A program made the position numbers and the translations under genes. Below the pieces are notes generated by a model, which had not been told where the DNA came from, did no database searches, and saw only the letters and a program-made list of their open reading frames with translations. A DNA stretch of 22,737 bases. It comes from a virus. Positions 1,064 to 17,559 of the stretch are shown one piece after another. Position 1 is the stretch's first letter, and each line of letters starts with the position of its first letter. The stretch is from positions 1-22,737 of IMG/VR virus record IMGVR_UViG_3300032213_000654; one strand, written 5' to 3'.

Positions 1064-1091
1064 AAGGGAAGCTAAGTGCTTCCTTTTTTTT
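1064..1091 (+). terminator. Rho-independent terminator after DUF3310 gene
   Basis: A GGAAGC / GCTTCC stem (1067-1072 and 1078-1083) with a 5-base loop is extended by A-T and G-T pairs at its base and followed by an uninterrupted T run (1084-1091). It lies just 3' of the stop codon at 1061 and immediately upstream of a promoter region, so it separates two transcription units. Confidence 0.85.
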
Positions 1092-1143
1092 TGTTAAATA
1101 TTTGTTAAGAAGTTTTTTTATTCAAACATAAGTTTTATATTTG
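1092..1143 (+). promoter_or_regulatory. Bacteroidota-type promoter with TGTTAA direct repeat (P1)
   Basis: A -7 element TATATTTG lies at 1136-1143 and fits the Bacteroidota consensus TAnnTTTG. The expected -33 position holds only a T tract (about 1113-1119), not a clear TTTG. Two copies of TGTTAA at 1092-1097 and 1103-1108 are exactly 11 bases apart, and the second ends 27 bases before the -7 element. The same repeat and the same 27-base gap occur at 4987-5038. The A-rich leader to the ATG at 1167 also resembles the leader at 5062. The repeat is probably an operator or activator site; this is inference. Confidence 0.7.
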
Positions 1144-3349: not shown

Positions 3350-3646
3350 ATGGAAAAGATAGATAAAAGAAAGTTCAATGGTGGTAACAGCACTAAGTCA
3401 AATGGAGCTGATAAAAGAAAGAATGAATATCGTAGCGCTTTAGAACAAGCTGCAACTGTAGAAGATGTAATATCAGTTATTAAAATGGTACATTCTAAAG
3501 CAGTAACTAAGCAAGATATAAAAGCAGCACAATTATTCTTAGAATACTATTTAGGAAAACCAAATCAAAGTATTGATATTAACTCTAGCGAAGGATTTAA
3601 TATTGACTTTAGAAATCTATTTACTTTTAATGATTCAAATAAATAA
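3350..3646 (+). CDS. terS: Terminase small subunit
   Basis: A 98-residue protein directly upstream of the large terminase. The N-terminus is basic and Gly/Asn-rich (RKFNGGNSTKSN). The central part reads ALEQAATVEDVISVIK then KQDIKAAQLFLEYYLGKPNQ, typical of phage small terminase/DNA-packaging proteins in which a helical domain is followed by the L-Y-x-x-G-K-P-x-Q motif. It recognises phage DNA and presents it to the ATPase. A longer frame begins at a TTG (3335), but the ATG at 3350 is preferred because it gives the usual basic start. It overlaps the large subunit by 17 bases. Confidence 0.8.
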   Translation: MEKIDKRKFNGGNSTKSNGADKRKNEYRSALEQAATVEDVISVIKMVHSKAVTKQDIKAAQLFLEYYLGKPNQSIDINSSEGFNIDFRNLFTFNDSNK

Positions 3647-4838
3647 CAAGTATCGAGTTATTGGTGAAGCCGATAGTAGATATTTTGTAGTTACAGGTGG
3701 TAGAGGATCTGGTAAATCTTACTCAGTGAATCTACTACTAACTATGCTTACTTATGAAGCAGGACACACAATACTATTTACAAGATATACTTTAACATCT
3801 GCTTATATTTCTATTATACCTGAGTTTATAGATAAGATAGATACTTTAGGTTTAAACAACGACTTCCATATAACGAAAGAAGAAATAGTAAACCTAAGAA
3901 CAGGTAGCAAGATATTATTTAAAGGAATTAAAACAAGTAGTGGAGATCAAACAGCTAACCTTAAATCTTTACAAGGTGTTACTACTTGGGTATTAGATGA
4001 AGCAGAAGAATTAGTAGATGAAGATACTTTCGATAAGATAGATTTGTCTATTAGAAGTAAAGAGAAACAGAATAGAGTTATCTTAATACTTAACCCAACT
4101 ACAAAAGAGCATTGGATATATAAACGCTTCTTTGAAAGTAAAGGAGTGCAAGAAGGTAGTAATACAACTAAACTAGATACTACTTACATACACACAACTT
4201 ACTTAGATAACTTAGATAATCTTTCGGAATCTTTTATAACTCAAATAGAAGATATAAAGAAACGCAGACCTGAAAAGTTTAAACATCAAATCGAGGGTGG
4301 CTGGTTACAAAAAGCAGATGGTGTTATCTTTAATAATTGGAGCATCGGTAAGTACGAACACGTAGGTAAAACTGTATGGGGCCAAGATTTCGGATTTTCA
4401 TCAGATCCGTCAACTTTGGTGGAATGCAATATAGACGTTTCTAACAAACGAATTTATATTAATGAATGCTTTTACTTACCTAACCTTACAACATCGCAGA
4501 TATTCAATTTAAATAAGCAATACGTTAACGATGGACTTATAATAGCAGATTCAGCAGAACCAAGATTAATAACTGAGTTAGCACAATCAGGTTTAAATAT
4601 TACTCCTGCAATTAAAGGACCAGGATCTGTTACTTATGGAATTAGTTTACTACAAGATTATGATTTAATAGTAACGCCGGAATCTGTTAACTTAATTAAA
4701 GAGTTAAATAACTATGTTTGGTTAGAAAAGAAATCTAATACTCCTATCGATAATCACAATCACTTACTTGATGCTTTACGATATGCTGTTAGTTATCAGT
4801 TAGAGAATAAGCACAAAGGTAACTATTACGTTTACTAG
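3630..4838 (+). CDS. terL: Terminase large subunit (packaging ATPase/nuclease)
   Basis: With the ATG at 3630 the protein has 402 residues. The ATPase domain has Walker A GGRGSGKS (23-30), Walker B TTWVLDEAEEL (118-128, Asp123 and Glu124) and a coupling-type ILNPTT (153-158). The C-terminal RNase-H-like nuclease domain has GQDFGFSSDP (251-260, Asp253), LIIADSAEP (303-311, Asp307) and NHLLDALRY (377-385, Asp381), giving the expected acidic triad. It cuts concatemeric DNA and pumps it through the portal. A TTG at 3573 would extend it by 19 residues out of frame over the small subunit and is less likely. The length fits compact phage TerL proteins. Confidence 0.93.
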   Translation: MIQINNKYRVIGEADSRYFVVTGGRGSGKSYSVNLLLTMLTYEAGHTILFTRYTLTSAYISIIPEFIDKIDTLGLNNDFHITKEEIVNLRTGSKILFKGIKTSSGDQTANLKSLQGVTTWVLDEAEELVDEDTFDKIDLSIRSKEKQNRVILILNPTTKEHWIYKRFFESKGVQEGSNTTKLDTTYIHTTYLDNLDNLSESFITQIEDIKKRRPEKFKHQIEGGWLQKADGVIFNNWSIGKYEHVGKTVWGQDFGFSSDPSTLVECNIDVSNKRIYINECFYLPNLTTSQIFNLNKQYVNDGLIIADSAEPRLITELAQSGLNITPAIKGPGSVTYGISLLQDYDLIVTPESVNLIKELNNYVWLEKKSNTPIDNHNHLLDALRYAVSYQLENKHKGNYYVY

Positions 4839-5742: not shown

Positions 5743-6426
5743 ATGAAAGTAGAAATTAATGTACCTGAAAATCTATCTGAAGTAAGATTAGAGCAATACC
5801 AAAAGTATGTTAAACTTATTACTGACAATGAAGTTTCTGATTTTGTAAATCAAAAGACACTAGAGATATTTTGTAACTTACCTTTAACAGATGTTATTAA
5901 AATTAGTTATAACTCAGTTGATGAAATACTAAAACACTTAAACACTTTATTTACTAAAAAATACTTTCTTAAACCTACATTTGAATTGTACGGAAAAGAG
6001 TTTGGGTTTATACCTAAATTAGAAGATATTACTTTTGGTGAATATATAGATTTAGATACTTACTTAAAAGATACTTCTACTTGGCACAAAGCACTAGCTG
6101 TATTATACAGACCAGTTAAAAAGAAGATAAAGAATATGTATCTTATAGAAGATTACAACGGCTCGGAGCAATATGCTGAAGTAATGAAAGATGCACCTGT
6201 AGATATTATGTTAGGTGCTATGGTTTTTTTTTACACTTTAGGCAGCGAATTACTGAACGATACGATGGATTATTTACAAGCTCAGAAGCTGGAACGATTG
6301 GAGATTACTCAAGGGAGCAACAGTTCGCAAATAAATATGGATGGTATCAATCAATCTATGGAATCGCTAAAGGAGATCTCACAAAGTTTGATATGGTCAC
6401 CAAGCTTTCATTACACCAGTGTTTAA
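5743..6426 (+). CDS. Tail assembly chaperone, zero-frame product (gpG-like)
   Basis: A 227-residue cytoplasmic protein at the head of the tail gene block. Features include an acidic beta-rich start, a central ITFGEYIDLDTYLKD (96-110), HKALAVLYRPV (115-125), and MLGAMVFFYTLGSELL (156-171). These resemble tail-assembly chaperones of Bacteroidota phages that coat the tape measure during tail assembly. The last 60 residues (about 168-227) are Ser/Gln/Asn-rich and poorly structured, and overlap a second reading frame that carries the conserved extension. A T9 run at 6224-6232 falls inside VFF codons 161-163 and gives a -1 shift site. The termination product may be needed in excess over the shifted one, as lambda gpG is over gpGT. 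Confidence 0.75.
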   Translation: MKVEINVPENLSEVRLEQYQKYVKLITDNEVSDFVNQKTLEIFCNLPLTDVIKISYNSVDEILKHLNTLFTKKYFLKPTFELYGKEFGFIPKLEDITFGEYIDLDTYLKDTSTWHKALAVLYRPVKKKIKNMYLIEDYNGSEQYAEVMKDAPVDIMLGAMVFFYTLGSELLNDTMDYLQAQKLERLEITQGSNSSQINMDGINQSMESLKEISQSLIWSPSFHYTSV

Positions 6427-6494
6427 CTTGGCTAACATTTGAAAAAGAAAAAAACGAAATAGAAATAGCAAACATAAAAAGAAATGGTATATAA
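5743..6494 (+). CDS. Tail assembly chaperone, -1 frameshift product (gpGT-like)
   Basis: If ribosomes slip -1 on T TTT TTT (6225-6231), the first 163 residues are joined to 87 more read from 6231, ending at TAA 6492-6494, for about 250 residues in all. The -1 frame is open from about 6180 to 6494. It encodes a folded-looking segment: EQQFANKYGWYQSIYGIAKG, then DLTKFDMVTKLSLHQCLTWL, then a charged helix. This KYGWY...LAKGD...LTWL pattern is what separate or shifted T-domain ORFs of Bacteroidota phages carry. The next gene starts inside the -1 frame (ATG 6484, 11-base overlap), the usual spacing for coupled genes. The zero frame instead leaves a 57-base gap. The frame with KYGWY has no suitable start of its own upstream of that motif. 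Confidence 0.75.
6225..6231 (+). other. Predicted -1 ribosomal frameshift site, T TTT TTT
   Basis: A run of nine T residues (6224-6232) lies in the chaperone gene with zero-frame phasing GTT TTT TTT TAC, which is an X XXY YYZ heptamer of T. After slipping, reading continues TTA CAC TTT and stays open to 6494. Homopolymeric T runs are known slippery sites. Downstream, 6290-6410 is visibly richer in G and C than its surroundings, consistent with dual coding. Confidence 0.75.
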
Positions 6495-7200
6495 TTTAAT
6501 ACAAACAATTAAGAATGCTTTATTAGCAGAACCTTTTTGCAATACAGTAACTGAAGGAGATATATTCGAAGTTGATTTAAACAAACGAACTATATTTCCT
6601 TTAACACATATAATGATTAACTCATCTACACACCAAGGTAATGTTATTTCTTTTAATGTTACTATGCTTTGTATGGATGTTATCAATCAAAAAGAAAAAG
6701 ATAATAAAGTAGATATTTGGAACACACAACACTTATTAGCTACAAGGGTTTTAGATTTACTTAATAGGGGAGATTTAAGAGATGGCAACTATGAGTTATC
6801 AGGCAATCCAAGTTACGAACCATTTACTGAAAGATTTGAAAACGATTTAGCAGGATGGGCTGTTACATTTGATATAGTACTTGCAAACGATATGACTATA
6901 TGTGGTAATACAATTCCTGTTTATAGCCAAGTAGTTAGTTTTGCAACTCCAATGAATTCTATAGTTTATAGATGTGATGGTGATTTTTTAGCTGCATCTT
7001 ATGGTAACAACGAAAACAATCTAACAGATTTAATAGATATGTTTAATTCAAATCCACCTGTAGCAAATAACGCAACATTCTTAGAATATGGTGTTTGTTA
7101 TGATAATGGTGATGGTAGGGTAAGAATGGAGATGACACAGGAAGCTTATAATGCACTTTCTTGTAATGGAAGTTTAACACTTGATGTTATCTACGATTAA
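6484..7200 (+). CDS. Tail terminator-like protein
   Basis: A 238-residue protein. The first half has the order seen in phage tail-terminator proteins: a leading helix VYNLIQTIKNALL (2-14), NTVTEGDIFEVDLNKRTIFPL (20-40), then HIMINSS and a beta strand VISFNVTMLCMDV (54-66). This is the D-x-x-K-x-x-x-x-P-L signature of Bacteroidota tail-completion proteins that cap the tube. The second half (about 150-238) is a beta-rich extension with three Cys, perhaps a virion-exposed domain. It starts inside the chaperone's -1 frame and its stop overlaps the next ATG. Confidence 0.65.
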   Translation: MVYNLIQTIKNALLAEPFCNTVTEGDIFEVDLNKRTIFPLTHIMINSSTHQGNVISFNVTMLCMDVINQKEKDNKVDIWNTQHLLATRVLDLLNRGDLRDGNYELSGNPSYEPFTERFENDLAGWAVTFDIVLANDMTICGNTIPVYSQVVSFATPMNSIVYRCDGDFLAASYGNNENNLTDLIDMFNSNPPVANNATFLEYGVCYDNGDGRVRMEMTQEAYNALSCNGSLTLDVIYD

Positions 7201-7742
7201 TGAAAAACCAAAAAGAAACATACGATTATTTAAACAAGTTTGCCAAGTATGTAATACAACAAAGTAGAAGTAACTTAACTAGGCAAGGTAAAAGAAATCA
7301 AGGTGATTTATATAATAGCTTAGGAAGTCAAATTGAAGTAGGTAAAAATAGCTTTCGTTTAACCTTTTTAATGGAAGATTATGGTACATTTGTAGATAAA
7401 GGTGTTAAAGGCAAAACTAGTTCAACAAGAGCGCCTAAAAGCCCTTATAAATTTGGAAGTGGTACAGGTGGTACAGGTGGTTTAACAAAGGGAATAGATA
7501 AATGGGTTAAACAAAAAAGAATACAATTTAAACAAAAAGAGGGCAAGGGTGTTAAAGGGCAGTTTTTATCTTATAACCAAACTTCTTTTTTAATTAGAAG
7601 AGCAATTTGGAATAAAGGTATTAAATCAAGTTTGTTTTTTACTAAACCATTTGAAGCAGCATTTAAAAACCTACCAGATGAAATAGTAGAAGCGTTTGCT
7701 TTAGATATAGAAAACTTAATGAAACATAGTTTAAAAAAATAA
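7200..7742 (+). CDS. HK97 gp10-like head-tail closure / tail completion protein
   Basis: A 180-residue protein. It shows LMEDYGTFVDKGVKG (57-71), close to the L-x-x-Y-G-x-F-V-D-x-G-x-x-G hallmark of HK97-gp10-like minor tail or neck proteins. The N-terminal part is a helix plus strands (FAKYVIQQSRSNLTRQG, SFRLTFLM). A Gly-rich basic loop at 75-100 and a helical end follow. Family members join the connector to the tail tube. It sits directly after the tail-terminator-like gene with a one-base overlap. The pI appears high from Lys content. Confidence 0.75.
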   Translation: MKNQKETYDYLNKFAKYVIQQSRSNLTRQGKRNQGDLYNSLGSQIEVGKNSFRLTFLMEDYGTFVDKGVKGKTSSTRAPKSPYKFGSGTGGTGGLTKGIDKWVKQKRIQFKQKEGKGVKGQFLSYNQTSFLIRRAIWNKGIKSSLFFTKPFEAAFKNLPDEIVEAFALDIENLMKHSLKK

Positions 7743-11341: not shown

Positions 11342-11483
11342 AAATATTTTAGATTTATTAAAACTGCAAAAAGGTTATGGTTCTACTGAATCAATAGCAA
11401 TAGCAAAAGGTATAAATAAAATACCAGAAACAACAAAAGAACTAAAACAATACTTTAAAAGATTAGCAAATGGCAATAACTAA
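11334..11483 (+). CDS. 49-aa hypothetical protein before the tape measure
   Basis: A short ORF overlapping the large tail gene by 8 bases and the tape measure gene by 14. It is basic and helical (NILDLLKLQKGYGSTESIAIAKGINKI, split at Gly14, then a second helix to residue 46). Its double overlap and the absence of a gap support translation. In many phages the gene just before the tape measure helps tail assembly, but here the chaperone is far upstream, so a helper role is only a guess. Confidence 0.55.
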   Translation: MLKNILDLLKLQKGYGSTESIAIAKGINKIPETTKELKQYFKRLANGNN

Positions 11484-13512
11484 GACAATAGAAATTGATG
11501 TAAATTCTAATAAAGCCGAAAGCGAAGTAAAAGACCTTATAAAAGGTTTTGAAAACCTAAACGACAGCGTAAAAGATTTAGGTAAAACTGGTGCTAAAGC
11601 TTTAGACAACATAGAAAAGAACACTAAAGAAGCAGAGAAATCTACAAAATCTTTATCTGAGGGTTTTAAAGCTACTGGTGTAGCTATGAAAGCTATGGGT
11701 GTTGGACTTATAATTTCAGCGTTTTCTACTTTGAAAGATGTATTTATGTCTAATCAAAAAGTAGCTGATACTTTTAGTGCTGTAATGGGTACTGTTACAA
11801 ATATATTTAGTCAAGTTACAAACGTAATAGTTTCTGTAATTGAAAAAGTAAACAGTGCTAGTGGCGGTTTTAAGGGTTTATCTGCTGTTATTAGTGGTTT
11901 GTTAACATTATCATTAACTCCATTAAAAGTAGCTTTCTACGGAATTAAATTAACTATTGATGAAGTTAGATTAGCTTGGGAAGAAAGTTTATTTGGTGAT
12001 GGTGATCCTAAAACTATTAAAGATTTAACTAAACGAATTGAAGAAACTAAAGGAAGTTTAAAAAAGGTAGGTACTGACGCTGTAGAAGCTGGAAAAAAAG
12101 TAGCTAGTAATATTGGAACTGCAATAGGTGAAGTAGGTGCTGTAGTTTCAGGTACTATTGAAGGTGTGAGTAAAATATCTATTGCTGGTGCTTATGAACA
12201 AGCTAAAGCAAATGTACAATTACAAAATACTGCAAAATTAGCAGAAGCAGAACAAGCTAGGTTAGTTGAACAATATGATAGACAAGCCGAAAAATTAAGA
12301 CAAGTAAGAGATGATGATAGAAATAGTATTGCTGATAGAATTGCTGCTAATGAAAAGTTAAAAAATGTTTTAAATAATCAACAAGCTGCGATGCTAGGAC
12401 AAGCTAATGCACAAATAGCAGCAGCACAATCTACATTAGCACAAAACAAAAGTATAGAAAATCAAGTAGCACTTACAAACGCTTTAGCAAATAGAGAGGG
12501 TGTACTTGCACAGGTAGAGGGTTTAAGATCAGAACAACAAGCAAACAATTTAGCGTTAAGTAAAGAAGCTTTAGATTTAACTAAAAGTAAAAACGAAGCA
12601 GAAACACAATTAGCTATTACGCAAAAACAATTTGATGCTGAAAGGTTAAAAGATGAAGAAGCTATATTATTAGCTCAAAAAGAGGCTTTAGAATATACTA
12701 AACAAGCTGAATTAGAAAGATTACAAAATGTAATTGATACAACTAAAGCAGGTACACAAGCTAGAGTAGATGCAGAAAACGAATACGCTGCTAAAAAGCA
12801 AGAAGTTGAAAATGCTATATTATTAAAAGAAGATGAAATAGCTGCATATAAATTAAACAAAAAAATAGAAGATCAACAATTAGTAGCAAATAACGATGCT
12901 TTAAATTTTCAAACTAGATTAGATGCTTTAACTGAGCAAGAAAGATTAATTACTGAAGCTACTAATATTTCTGAAGCTGAAAGAACTGCTTTATTAAAAG
13001 CTAATGCCGAAGCAAGAACTGAAATAGCTACAAAAGAAAAAGAAGCAAGATTAAAATTAATGGATGCAGTTTCTAGTGGTTTATCTATGGCTGCTGGTGA
13101 GTTAGGTGAAGCTACTGCTGCTGGTAAAGCTGCCGCCGTTGCTGCTGCTACAATATCTACTTATACTGCTATTGCAGGTCAGTTACAAGCGTTTTCTAAA
13201 GTACCTGTCCCAGGATATGCTATTGCACAAGCTATAGTTACTGGTGCTATGGGTTTACTACAAGTTAAAAAAATATTAGAAGTAAAAACACCTGAGGGAG
13301 GAGGTGGTGGTTCTGCACCTAGTATGGCAGGTGGTGGTGGTGCTGCAGCTATGCCATCTTTTAATGTAGTTGGTGCTGGTGGTACAAATCAAATAGCACA
13401 AGTAATGAGTGATCAAGGTGCTGCACCTGTCCAAGCTTATGTAGTTGCTAGTAATGTAACATCTGCACAAAGTTTAAATAGAAACATAGTAAACAACGCT
13501 ACATTAGGATAA
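11470..13512 (+). CDS. Tail tape measure protein
   Basis: A 680-residue protein setting tail length and lying inside the tail tube. It has an N-terminal charged helical region (15-65), hydrophobic helices around 68-88 and 135-160, and a long Ala/Glu/Gln/Lys coiled coil from about 240 to 525. An Ala-rich hydrophobic region (about 535-600) and a Gly-rich patch (about 610-630) follow, then a C-terminal tail. This layout is typical of tape measures. Using about 0.15 nm per residue, the tail would be near 100 nm. There is no transglycosylase or peptidase motif. Confidence 0.9.
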   Translation: MAITKTIEIDVNSNKAESEVKDLIKGFENLNDSVKDLGKTGAKALDNIEKNTKEAEKSTKSLSEGFKATGVAMKAMGVGLIISAFSTLKDVFMSNQKVADTFSAVMGTVTNIFSQVTNVIVSVIEKVNSASGGFKGLSAVISGLLTLSLTPLKVAFYGIKLTIDEVRLAWEESLFGDGDPKTIKDLTKRIEETKGSLKKVGTDAVEAGKKVASNIGTAIGEVGAVVSGTIEGVSKISIAGAYEQAKANVQLQNTAKLAEAEQARLVEQYDRQAEKLRQVRDDDRNSIADRIAANEKLKNVLNNQQAAMLGQANAQIAAAQSTLAQNKSIENQVALTNALANREGVLAQVEGLRSEQQANNLALSKEALDLTKSKNEAETQLAITQKQFDAERLKDEEAILLAQKEALEYTKQAELERLQNVIDTTKAGTQARVDAENEYAAKKQEVENAILLKEDEIAAYKLNKKIEDQQLVANNDALNFQTRLDALTEQERLITEATNISEAERTALLKANAEARTEIATKEKEARLKLMDAVSSGLSMAAGELGEATAAGKAAAVAAATISTYTAIAGQLQAFSKVPVPGYAIAQAIVTGAMGLLQVKKILEVKTPEGGGGGSAPSMAGGGGAAAMPSFNVVGAGGTNQIAQVMSDQGAAPVQAYVVASNVTSAQSLNRNIVNNATLG

Positions 13513-13553: not shown

Positions 13554-14147
13554 ATGAACTTAATAGAATTAATTATAGACGATAACGAAGAATTGCAAGG
13601 TGTAGAAGCTATCAGTGTAGTAGAATCACCTGCAATAGAATCGGACTTTGTAGCTTTAAAAGCAGAAGAAGTTAAACTTGCTGAGGTATCTAAAGAAAAG
13701 CGGATCTTAATGGGTGCTGTATTAATACCAGAAAAACCTATTTATAGAAAAAGTGGAGATACTGAATATTACATTTACTTTTCAAAAGACACAGTAGTAA
13801 AAGCTTCACAATTATTTTTAAAGAAAGGTAACCAATCTAATAGTACTTTAGAACACCAAAAAGCTATTGAAGGATTAACTGTAGTTGAATCTTGGATTGT
13901 AGAAGATTTAACTAAAGACAAATCTGCTTTATATAATTTAAGTGTGCCAGTAGGTACTTGGATGGCTTCTATAAAAGTTGATAATGATGAAATTTGGAAT
14001 GACTTTGTAAAAACAGGTAAAGTTAAAGGGTTTTCACTTGAGGGTTACTTTGCCGACAAATTAGAATCAAAAAAAGAACTAAGCAAAGAACTAACAGAAG
14101 AAGAAACTTTAATAGAACAAATTAAACAAGTTTTAAGAAACATATAA
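13554..14147 (+). CDS. XkdF-like prohead protease
   Basis: A 197-residue protein with the XkdF/S78-type phage protease layout. The N-terminal segment is GVEAISVVESPAIESDFVAL (16-35). It is followed by KRILMGAVLIPEKPIYR (49-65), TLEHQKAIEGLTVVESWIVED (98-118), and GTWMASIKV then VKGFSLEGYF (157-166). His101 and Ser161 are the likely catalytic His and Ser. It matures the capsid by cleaving scaffold and capsid N-termini during assembly. A short helical, charged C-terminus may act as targeting tail. It is separated from the scaffold and capsid genes by four genes and a reverse-strand cassette. Confidence 0.82.
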   Translation: MNLIELIIDDNEELQGVEAISVVESPAIESDFVALKAEEVKLAEVSKEKRILMGAVLIPEKPIYRKSGDTEYYIYFSKDTVVKASQLFLKKGNQSNSTLEHQKAIEGLTVVESWIVEDLTKDKSALYNLSVPVGTWMASIKVDNDEIWNDFVKTGKVKGFSLEGYFADKLESKKELSKELTEEETLIEQIKQVLRNI

Positions 14148-15945: not shown

Positions 15946-16524
15946 ATGTCAAATGTAATTAATCAAATCAAAACCATTTTGGGAATGGAAGTAAAACTAG
16001 CCCAAATGAAGTTAGATAACGGAACAGTTTTAGAAGCTGAAGCTTTTGAAGCTGGTATGCCTGTTTTTATCGTTAACGAAGAAGATCGTATCGCTTTACC
16101 AGTTGGAGAGTACAAACTAGAAGATGGTATGATGCTAATCGTTGTTGAAGAAGGTATTATCGCTGAAGTTAAAGAAGCAGAAATGCCTGAAGCTGAAGTA
16201 GAGGTTGAAGAGCCTGAAGTAGAAGTAGAAGTTGAACAAGAAATGTCAGAAACTGCTACTCCTAAAAAAGTTATCGAATCTACAATTAGAGAATCACACT
16301 TTTCGAAAGAAGAAGTAGACGCTTTAAAAGCAGAAATTGAAGCTTTAAAAACTGAATTAGCTTCTTTAAAAGAAGTAAAAGAAGAAGAAGGTGTAGAATT
16401 ATCTGCACAACCTTTAACCCACAACCCAGAAGCAAAATCTGAGGTTAAATTAAACTTATACTCACAATCAAGAACTAAAAATACTTTTGATACTGTGTTA
16501 AGTAAAATTTCAAAAATTAAATAA
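15946..16524 (+). CDS. Capsid scaffold-like protein
   Basis: A 192-residue acidic protein directly before the major capsid gene. Residues about 15-75 look like a small beta domain (DNGTVLEAEAF, GMPVFIV, LPVGEYKLEDGMMLIVVEEG). Residues 77-100 form a Glu/Val alternating stretch, 121-147 a coiled coil (SKEEVDALKAEIEALKTEL), and the C-terminus is basic (SRTKNTF, VLSKISKIK), as in scaffolds whose tail contacts the capsid protein. This head-core/scaffold assignment rests on position and layout. It uses more ATC and GAA codons than the early genes, suggesting high expression. Confidence 0.65.
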   Translation: MSNVINQIKTILGMEVKLAQMKLDNGTVLEAEAFEAGMPVFIVNEEDRIALPVGEYKLEDGMMLIVVEEGIIAEVKEAEMPEAEVEVEEPEVEVEVEQEMSETATPKKVIESTIRESHFSKEEVDALKAEIEALKTELASLKEVKEEEGVELSAQPLTHNPEAKSEVKLNLYSQSRTKNTFDTVLSKISKIK

Positions 16525-16549
16525 TAATTAAAATTAAACACTAAAAAAG

Positions 16550-17527: not shown

Positions 17528-17559
17528 GGGTGGTGGAAAAAACACCATCCTTTTTTTTT
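17528..17559 (+). terminator. Strong terminator after the capsid gene
   Basis: GGGTGGTG (17528-17535) pairs with CACCATCC (17543-17550) with one G-T wobble and a GAAAAAA loop, followed by nine T. It lies 24 bases after the capsid stop and could set the capsid to downstream expression ratio by partial termination. Confidence 0.9.

Follow-up and report, generated by a model that had tools for sequence, protein, structure and literature searches.

The window, by which we mean the whole 22.7-kb (22,737-nucleotide) stretch of the virus record IMGVR_UViG_3300032213_000654 analysed here, carries on its plus strand an open reading frame (ORF) of 227 amino acids (positions 5743–6426; the ‘G’ part). 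Within it lies a run of nine thymines (T9; 6224–6232), the putative slippage site, which is read within codons 160–164, ATG GTT TTT TTT TAC. Positions 6225–6231 of the run form the heptamer T TTT TTT, in phase with the gene and of the general pattern X XXY YYZ. The –1 frame is open from 6180 to 6494 and, past the run (6231–6494, same strand), specifies 87 amino acids and a stop codon (the ‘T’ part): LHFRQRITERYDGLF...KYGWYQSIYGIAKGD...LTWLTFEKEKNEIE. Translation in this frame after a slip reads LHFRQRITERYDGLFTSSEAGTIGDYSREQQFANKYGWYQSIYGIAKGDLTKFDMVTKLSLHQCLTWLTFEKEKNEIEIANIKRNGI, and the virtual fusion of the zero frame with the –1 segment is 250 amino acids long, with ...GAMVFFLHFR... around the predicted joint. 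The third (+1) frame encounters a TAG stop codon 6 nt past the run (6239–6241), and so would end at once; a stop occurs at a similar distance in most relatives. In the 87-residue segment the sole start codon, an ATG, comes 160 nt after the T9, beyond the beginning of the conserved core and hence too late to include it. The next gene, which begins at an ATG (6484), shares 11 bases with the end of the –1 frame, whereas 57 bases separate it from the end of the zero frame. An initial annotation, made from the letters alone, had described the zero and –1 frames, the T run, the lack of a suitable start and the two spacings, all of which proved correct.

The two parts differ in character. Zero-frame residues 1 to ~163 make up a conserved domain, PHROG 32199, whereas those past the slip site arise for the most part as a side effect of the –1 frame that overlaps them: the ‘NGxGINQ’ of the zero-frame tail, for example, is ‘KWGWYQ’ read in the shifted frame. 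AlphaFold predicts a confident domain to about residue 188 of the zero-frame product, followed by disorder, and helices in the –1 segment, a predicted helical domain that contains the motifs KYGWYQS and FEKEKNEIE. Its motifs W/Y-G-W-Y, A-x-G-D and F-E-K-E-K-N-E-I-E are conserved above the level of the zero-frame tail. A search of IMG/VR with this one segment found 148 encoded relatives, and a profile found at least 536 on viral contigs; the domain occurs, too, in three bacterial bins, two of Bacteroidetes and one of Winogradskyella. Profile A1 proved too diverse for use in pattern scans. In every relative, entry into the domain is from the zero frame.

Substitutions follow the codon structure of the –1 frame. 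In the ~190 nt of two-frame overlap past the slip site, they occur at 0.13, 0.09 and 0.21 at –1 codon positions 1, 2 and 3, and upstream of the run at 0.08, 0.05 and 0.28 at the corresponding zero-frame positions. Over the whole overlap, the relative rate of non-synonymous to synonymous change is roughly 0.1–0.3 in the –1 frame versus 0.15–0.55 in the zero frame, ratios that vary widely from one sub-region to another and with the transition bias that is assumed. Judged from these comparisons, purifying selection acts on the –1 frame, and the overlap is constrained in both frames, most in the –1. The segment is a real, conserved protein domain, and its many relatives and their T runs (below) put it far beyond chance.

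In some phages the two parts are naturally joined. A viral fold search picked out Flavobacterium phage 6H, through which we reached single-ORF proteins in phages 23T, FPSV-F7, laban6-1, Ingeline and Leef and in Microcystis phages; further matches to such fused proteins came from Bacteroides phage BT-TP2 and a faecal phage. The G profile matches the single-ORF proteins at 97.2% (E 3.3e-11), and the T profile aligns directly after their G part (E 0.0023, with a probability of just 12%). Compared with the virtual 250-residue fusion, the single-ORF protein gives an hhalign match of 98.5% (E 2.4e-15) that spans the joint. The Duneviridae members (Flavobacterium 23T, FPSV-F7 and laban6-1, and Cellulophaga Ingeline; PHROG 25418, annotated as hypothetical) are collinear with the window gene across the joint and need no frameshift. 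Where the joint can be placed—in Leef it could not be reliably, and that phage stands outside this comparison—the fused genes retain Phe-Phe or Tyr-Phe there, on a run of T6 or less. This contrast with the T9 of the window gene supports both the fusion and a link between T9 and frameshifting. Viral-contig scans turned up no more fused relatives, except Ingeline itself. Ingeline genomes differ in length by a few bases (42624–42628), and the three records compared, Ingeline_1, _5 and _8 (L287, L291 and L288), encode an identical fused protein. In 6H (L281; 10040–10927, minus strand) the fused gene seems broken, into 191 amino acids and an unannotated gap. We considered this homologue as a second frameshift and set it aside, for the near-identical 23T and FPSV-F7 carry an intact ORF of 293 amino acids in its place; the break is due either to an error in sequencing or to a mutation that arose recently. 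Given the conservation of the –1 segment, the selection on its frame and the naturally fused homologues, the frameshifted fusion is very probably made, as the initial annotation had proposed.

Two other accounts of the frame break can be weighed at this point. The –1 domain might be a separate small protein, begun, through coupling or re-initiation, at a start of its own and not fused at all. Something of the kind is suggested by the cultured Nonlabens phages P12024L/S, which have the same gene order, the T9 run and the –1 domain at 26% identity: in P12024L there is an ATG across the stop codon of G, and genes 40 and 41 (PHROG 32199 and 38404) are annotated as two separate hypothetical proteins. 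The latter (P12024L_41; L096, 6528–6695), listed as a gene of 55 amino acids, is actually the end of gene 40’s –1 extension. In most relatives the conserved core of the –1 frame is not preceded by a start codon, the frame is conserved in its entirety back to the T run, and single-ORF fused homologues exist, all of which make a separate protein very improbable. The alternative that the gene is truly one ORF, broken by an assembly or sequencing error, draws on the proneness of homopolymers to such errors, on the existence of fused relatives and on the 6H record, which seems broken against near-identical phages. Against it, the same T9 and frames recur in 206 distinct sequences drawn from numerous metagenomes, as well as in two isolate genomes, and the overlap is constrained in both frames, most strongly in the –1; we consider this the least probable reading of all. 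As the initial annotation said of the last 87 residues, gene callers would miss this conserved hidden domain, and they would do so on hundreds of contigs.

How the frame is changed is a more delicate matter. Our census of the T run comprised 206 distinct relatives, representing 53 lineages below 70% DNA identity. At the homologous position the run is nine long in 202 of them, ten in four, and shorter in none, and it is kept in the cultured P12024L/S (26% identity) and in L015 (29%). In other genes of the same loci, runs of nine or more T’s occur twice in 738 kb. TTT TTT encodes 42% of the Phe-Phe pairs found elsewhere, and 38.5% of Val codons are GTT. Most relatives have the run in codon phase 1, with phase 2 in L072/L079 and L273–L275, two well-separated lineages, and phase 0 in L015 and L197; starred branches of the tree force at least two origins of phase 2. 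Altogether, phase has changed in at least three lineages, with length still nine or more. The T’s that flank the in-phase heptamer, itself found in all relatives, number (upstream, downstream) (1,1) in 196 cases, (0,2) in five, (1,2) in three, and (2,0) and (2,1) in one each. Their sum is never below two, and a T lost on one side accompanies a T gained on the other, a compensation seen in few lineages only. Residues at codon 161 (V, L, I, F, S, G, A) and at codon 164 (Y, W, S by a rare TCG, L, F) are chemically diverse. The outer two T’s are partly due to residue preferences, for a hydrophobic residue at 161 and for –1-frame Leu or Phe first after the slip. It looks, from these alignments, as though the conserved feature is a run length of nine, beyond the slippery heptamer alone. 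Two further T9 runs in the window (1084–1092 and 17551–17559) are both intergenic, and are probably parts of terminators.

For a ribosome to slip, seven T’s in phase suffice; for RNA polymerase to slip, nine are needed, in any phase. A large share of genomes show evident selection against slippage-prone A/T runs at a length of nine (PMC1088944), a threshold that the run in the window equals, and here a homopolymer of that length is retained within a gene while being rare in other genes. Insertions made in A/T runs during transcription are mostly of one nucleotide, and more numerous there than deletions (PMC5574713); a single-nucleotide insertion at the run leads to exactly the –1 frame. On T9, then, the RNA:DNA hybrid of RNA polymerase would be filled with weak rU:dA pairs and one U could be added, and on the resulting U10 mRNA ribosomes would pass directly into the –1 frame. 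One start would thus serve for two proteins: a zero-frame product of 227 amino acids (G-like) and a fusion of 250 (GT-like), which a portion of the transcripts would yield and of which the last 87 residues would be those of the –1 frame.

The competing explanation, and the one that the initial annotation favoured, is that the ribosome itself slips by –1 on U UUU UUU, in the programmed manner of lambda G/GT; tRNA-Phe would re-pair in both the P and the A site. This is the established route for G/GT pairs (PMC5009743), and the annotation was correct about the heptamer: one is present, in phase, in all relatives. Since any T9 holds an in-phase UUUUUUU, ribosomal slippage may contribute. Less easily accommodated is that the run is nine or ten long, and never seven or eight, in the 206 relatives, and that this length survives shifts of phase. 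Nor did we find the stimulators that usually, if not obligatorily, accompany ribosomal slippage. Among 53 diverse sequences no RNA structure is evident near the run (mean folding z-scores –0.01 and –0.11 downstream, 0.25 upstream), no RNA family emerged as a consistent stimulator, and no consistent Shine–Dalgarno (SD) element lies upstream; SD-like 5-mers are mildly enriched there (13 of 53 versus ~6 expected), which favours the ribosome a little, but Bacteroidia ribosomes do not recognize the SD (PMC9976891). We regard ribosomal frameshifting as a real possibility, somewhat short of an even chance. The retention of run length despite phase shifts, the lack of RNA structure and of a consistent SD element, and the rarity of T≥9 instead incline us, if modestly, towards transcriptional slippage. 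The phase-independent argument from length is strong but not decisive, because the outer T’s are partly explicable by residue preferences.

What the two products do is suggested by analogy. A tail assembly chaperone is the most likely role for the pair, and we think it a likely one, on account of the G/GT layout and of the position: terminase lies on one side and tail genes on the other, and the second gene downstream is tail-completion/neck-like. The conserved upstream neighbour is the terminase large subunit (3573–4838). Downstream come PHROG 30964, of unknown function but possibly tail terminator-like (6484–7200), and a Neck1/tail-completion-like gene (7200–7742; PHROG 29822), the P12024L homologue of which weakly matches phrog_5; farther on is a putative tape measure gene (11470–13512), whose P12024L homologue matches the tape measure family phrog_9483 (5.6e-12). 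All are on the plus strand, and the order of terminase, G/T, 6484 and 7200 is conserved. As in lambda gpG/gpGT, the sequences of the 206 relatives indicate that a single start gives two products, owing to a conserved frameshift close to where G ends: an N-terminal product and a minority –1 fusion, of comparable sizes. Both pairs belong to a terminase/neck/tail cluster ahead of the (here putative) tape measure gene, and both overlap the next gene briefly. By that likeness, the G-like and GT-like proteins would coat the tape measure and recruit the tail tube protein. Unlike the lambda genes, which rely on programmed –1 ribosomal frameshifting, those of the window have an invariant T9, no stimulator that we could find, ~190 nt of two-frame overlap, a probably transcriptional mechanism and no detectable sequence homology (hhalign probability 0.2 against lambda G/T). 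Searches by sequence and by fold gave no Pfam, PHROG-function or PDB match; the one match to an annotated chaperone is a weak fold match (E 0.31). Known tail assembly chaperone families are very diverse, and so the missing homology lowers the case that the pair is a member of one of them, not that it works like one. The chaperone assignment of the initial annotation is plausible, by architecture, size and neighbourhood, but unproven.

The pair also lies 5–8 kb before the tape measure gene, rather than adjacent to it as in lambda. The initial annotation put this distance at about 5 kb and thought it unusual. The distance is real—5.2 kb separate the run from the start of the putative tape measure gene downstream—but because it is conserved at 5–8 kb in the four measurable cases, it is a trait of the phage group rather than of this contig. 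In P12024L, gene 50 matches tape measure families; genes 48 and 49, just before it, were considered as an alternative chaperone pair, and no slippery run is seen in them. In Ingeline, two genes lie between the fused gene and a tape measure gene, annotated as such, that follows it.

Transcriptional slippage at A9 or T9 is known from bacteria: in Thermus thermophilus dnaX, in IS elements and in Shigella type III secretion genes. These share with the window gene a nine-base A/T homopolymer inside the gene that is rare in other genes, a conserved alternative frame and a quick stop in the third frame. They differ in being bacterial, whereas here the T9 belongs to phages of Bacteroidota. For a phage tail chaperone, we found no description of transcriptional slippage in the literature searched. 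The broadest reading, which we hold to be evenly balanced, is that in a large group of Bacteroidota siphophages the ratio of tail-chaperone-like proteins is set by RNA polymerase stuttering on a fixed T9, which replaces the ribosomal –1 frameshift of lambda-like phages. The findings suggest that the tail-chaperone frameshift may have been solved at the level of transcription in hosts whose ribosomes forgo SD pairing, and they provide a candidate function for two PHROG families without an assigned one, 32199 and 38404. The system lends itself to direct tests, both through the cultured P12024L/S and through the relatives that are naturally fused and carry T6 or less.

Downstream of the putative tape measure gene, the window shows one further peculiarity. 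PHROG 24921, a profile of 349 amino acids—the length of P12024L gene 01—is matched in two places: by 13554–14144 in its protease half (profile 9–183) and by 15946–16524 in its C-terminal half (214–332). Protease and scaffold-like part seem, then, to be split here by ~1.8 kb of other genes. The minus-strand ORF of 192 amino acids at 15963–16541, antisense to the equally long gene at 15946–16524, is probably a shadow ORF.
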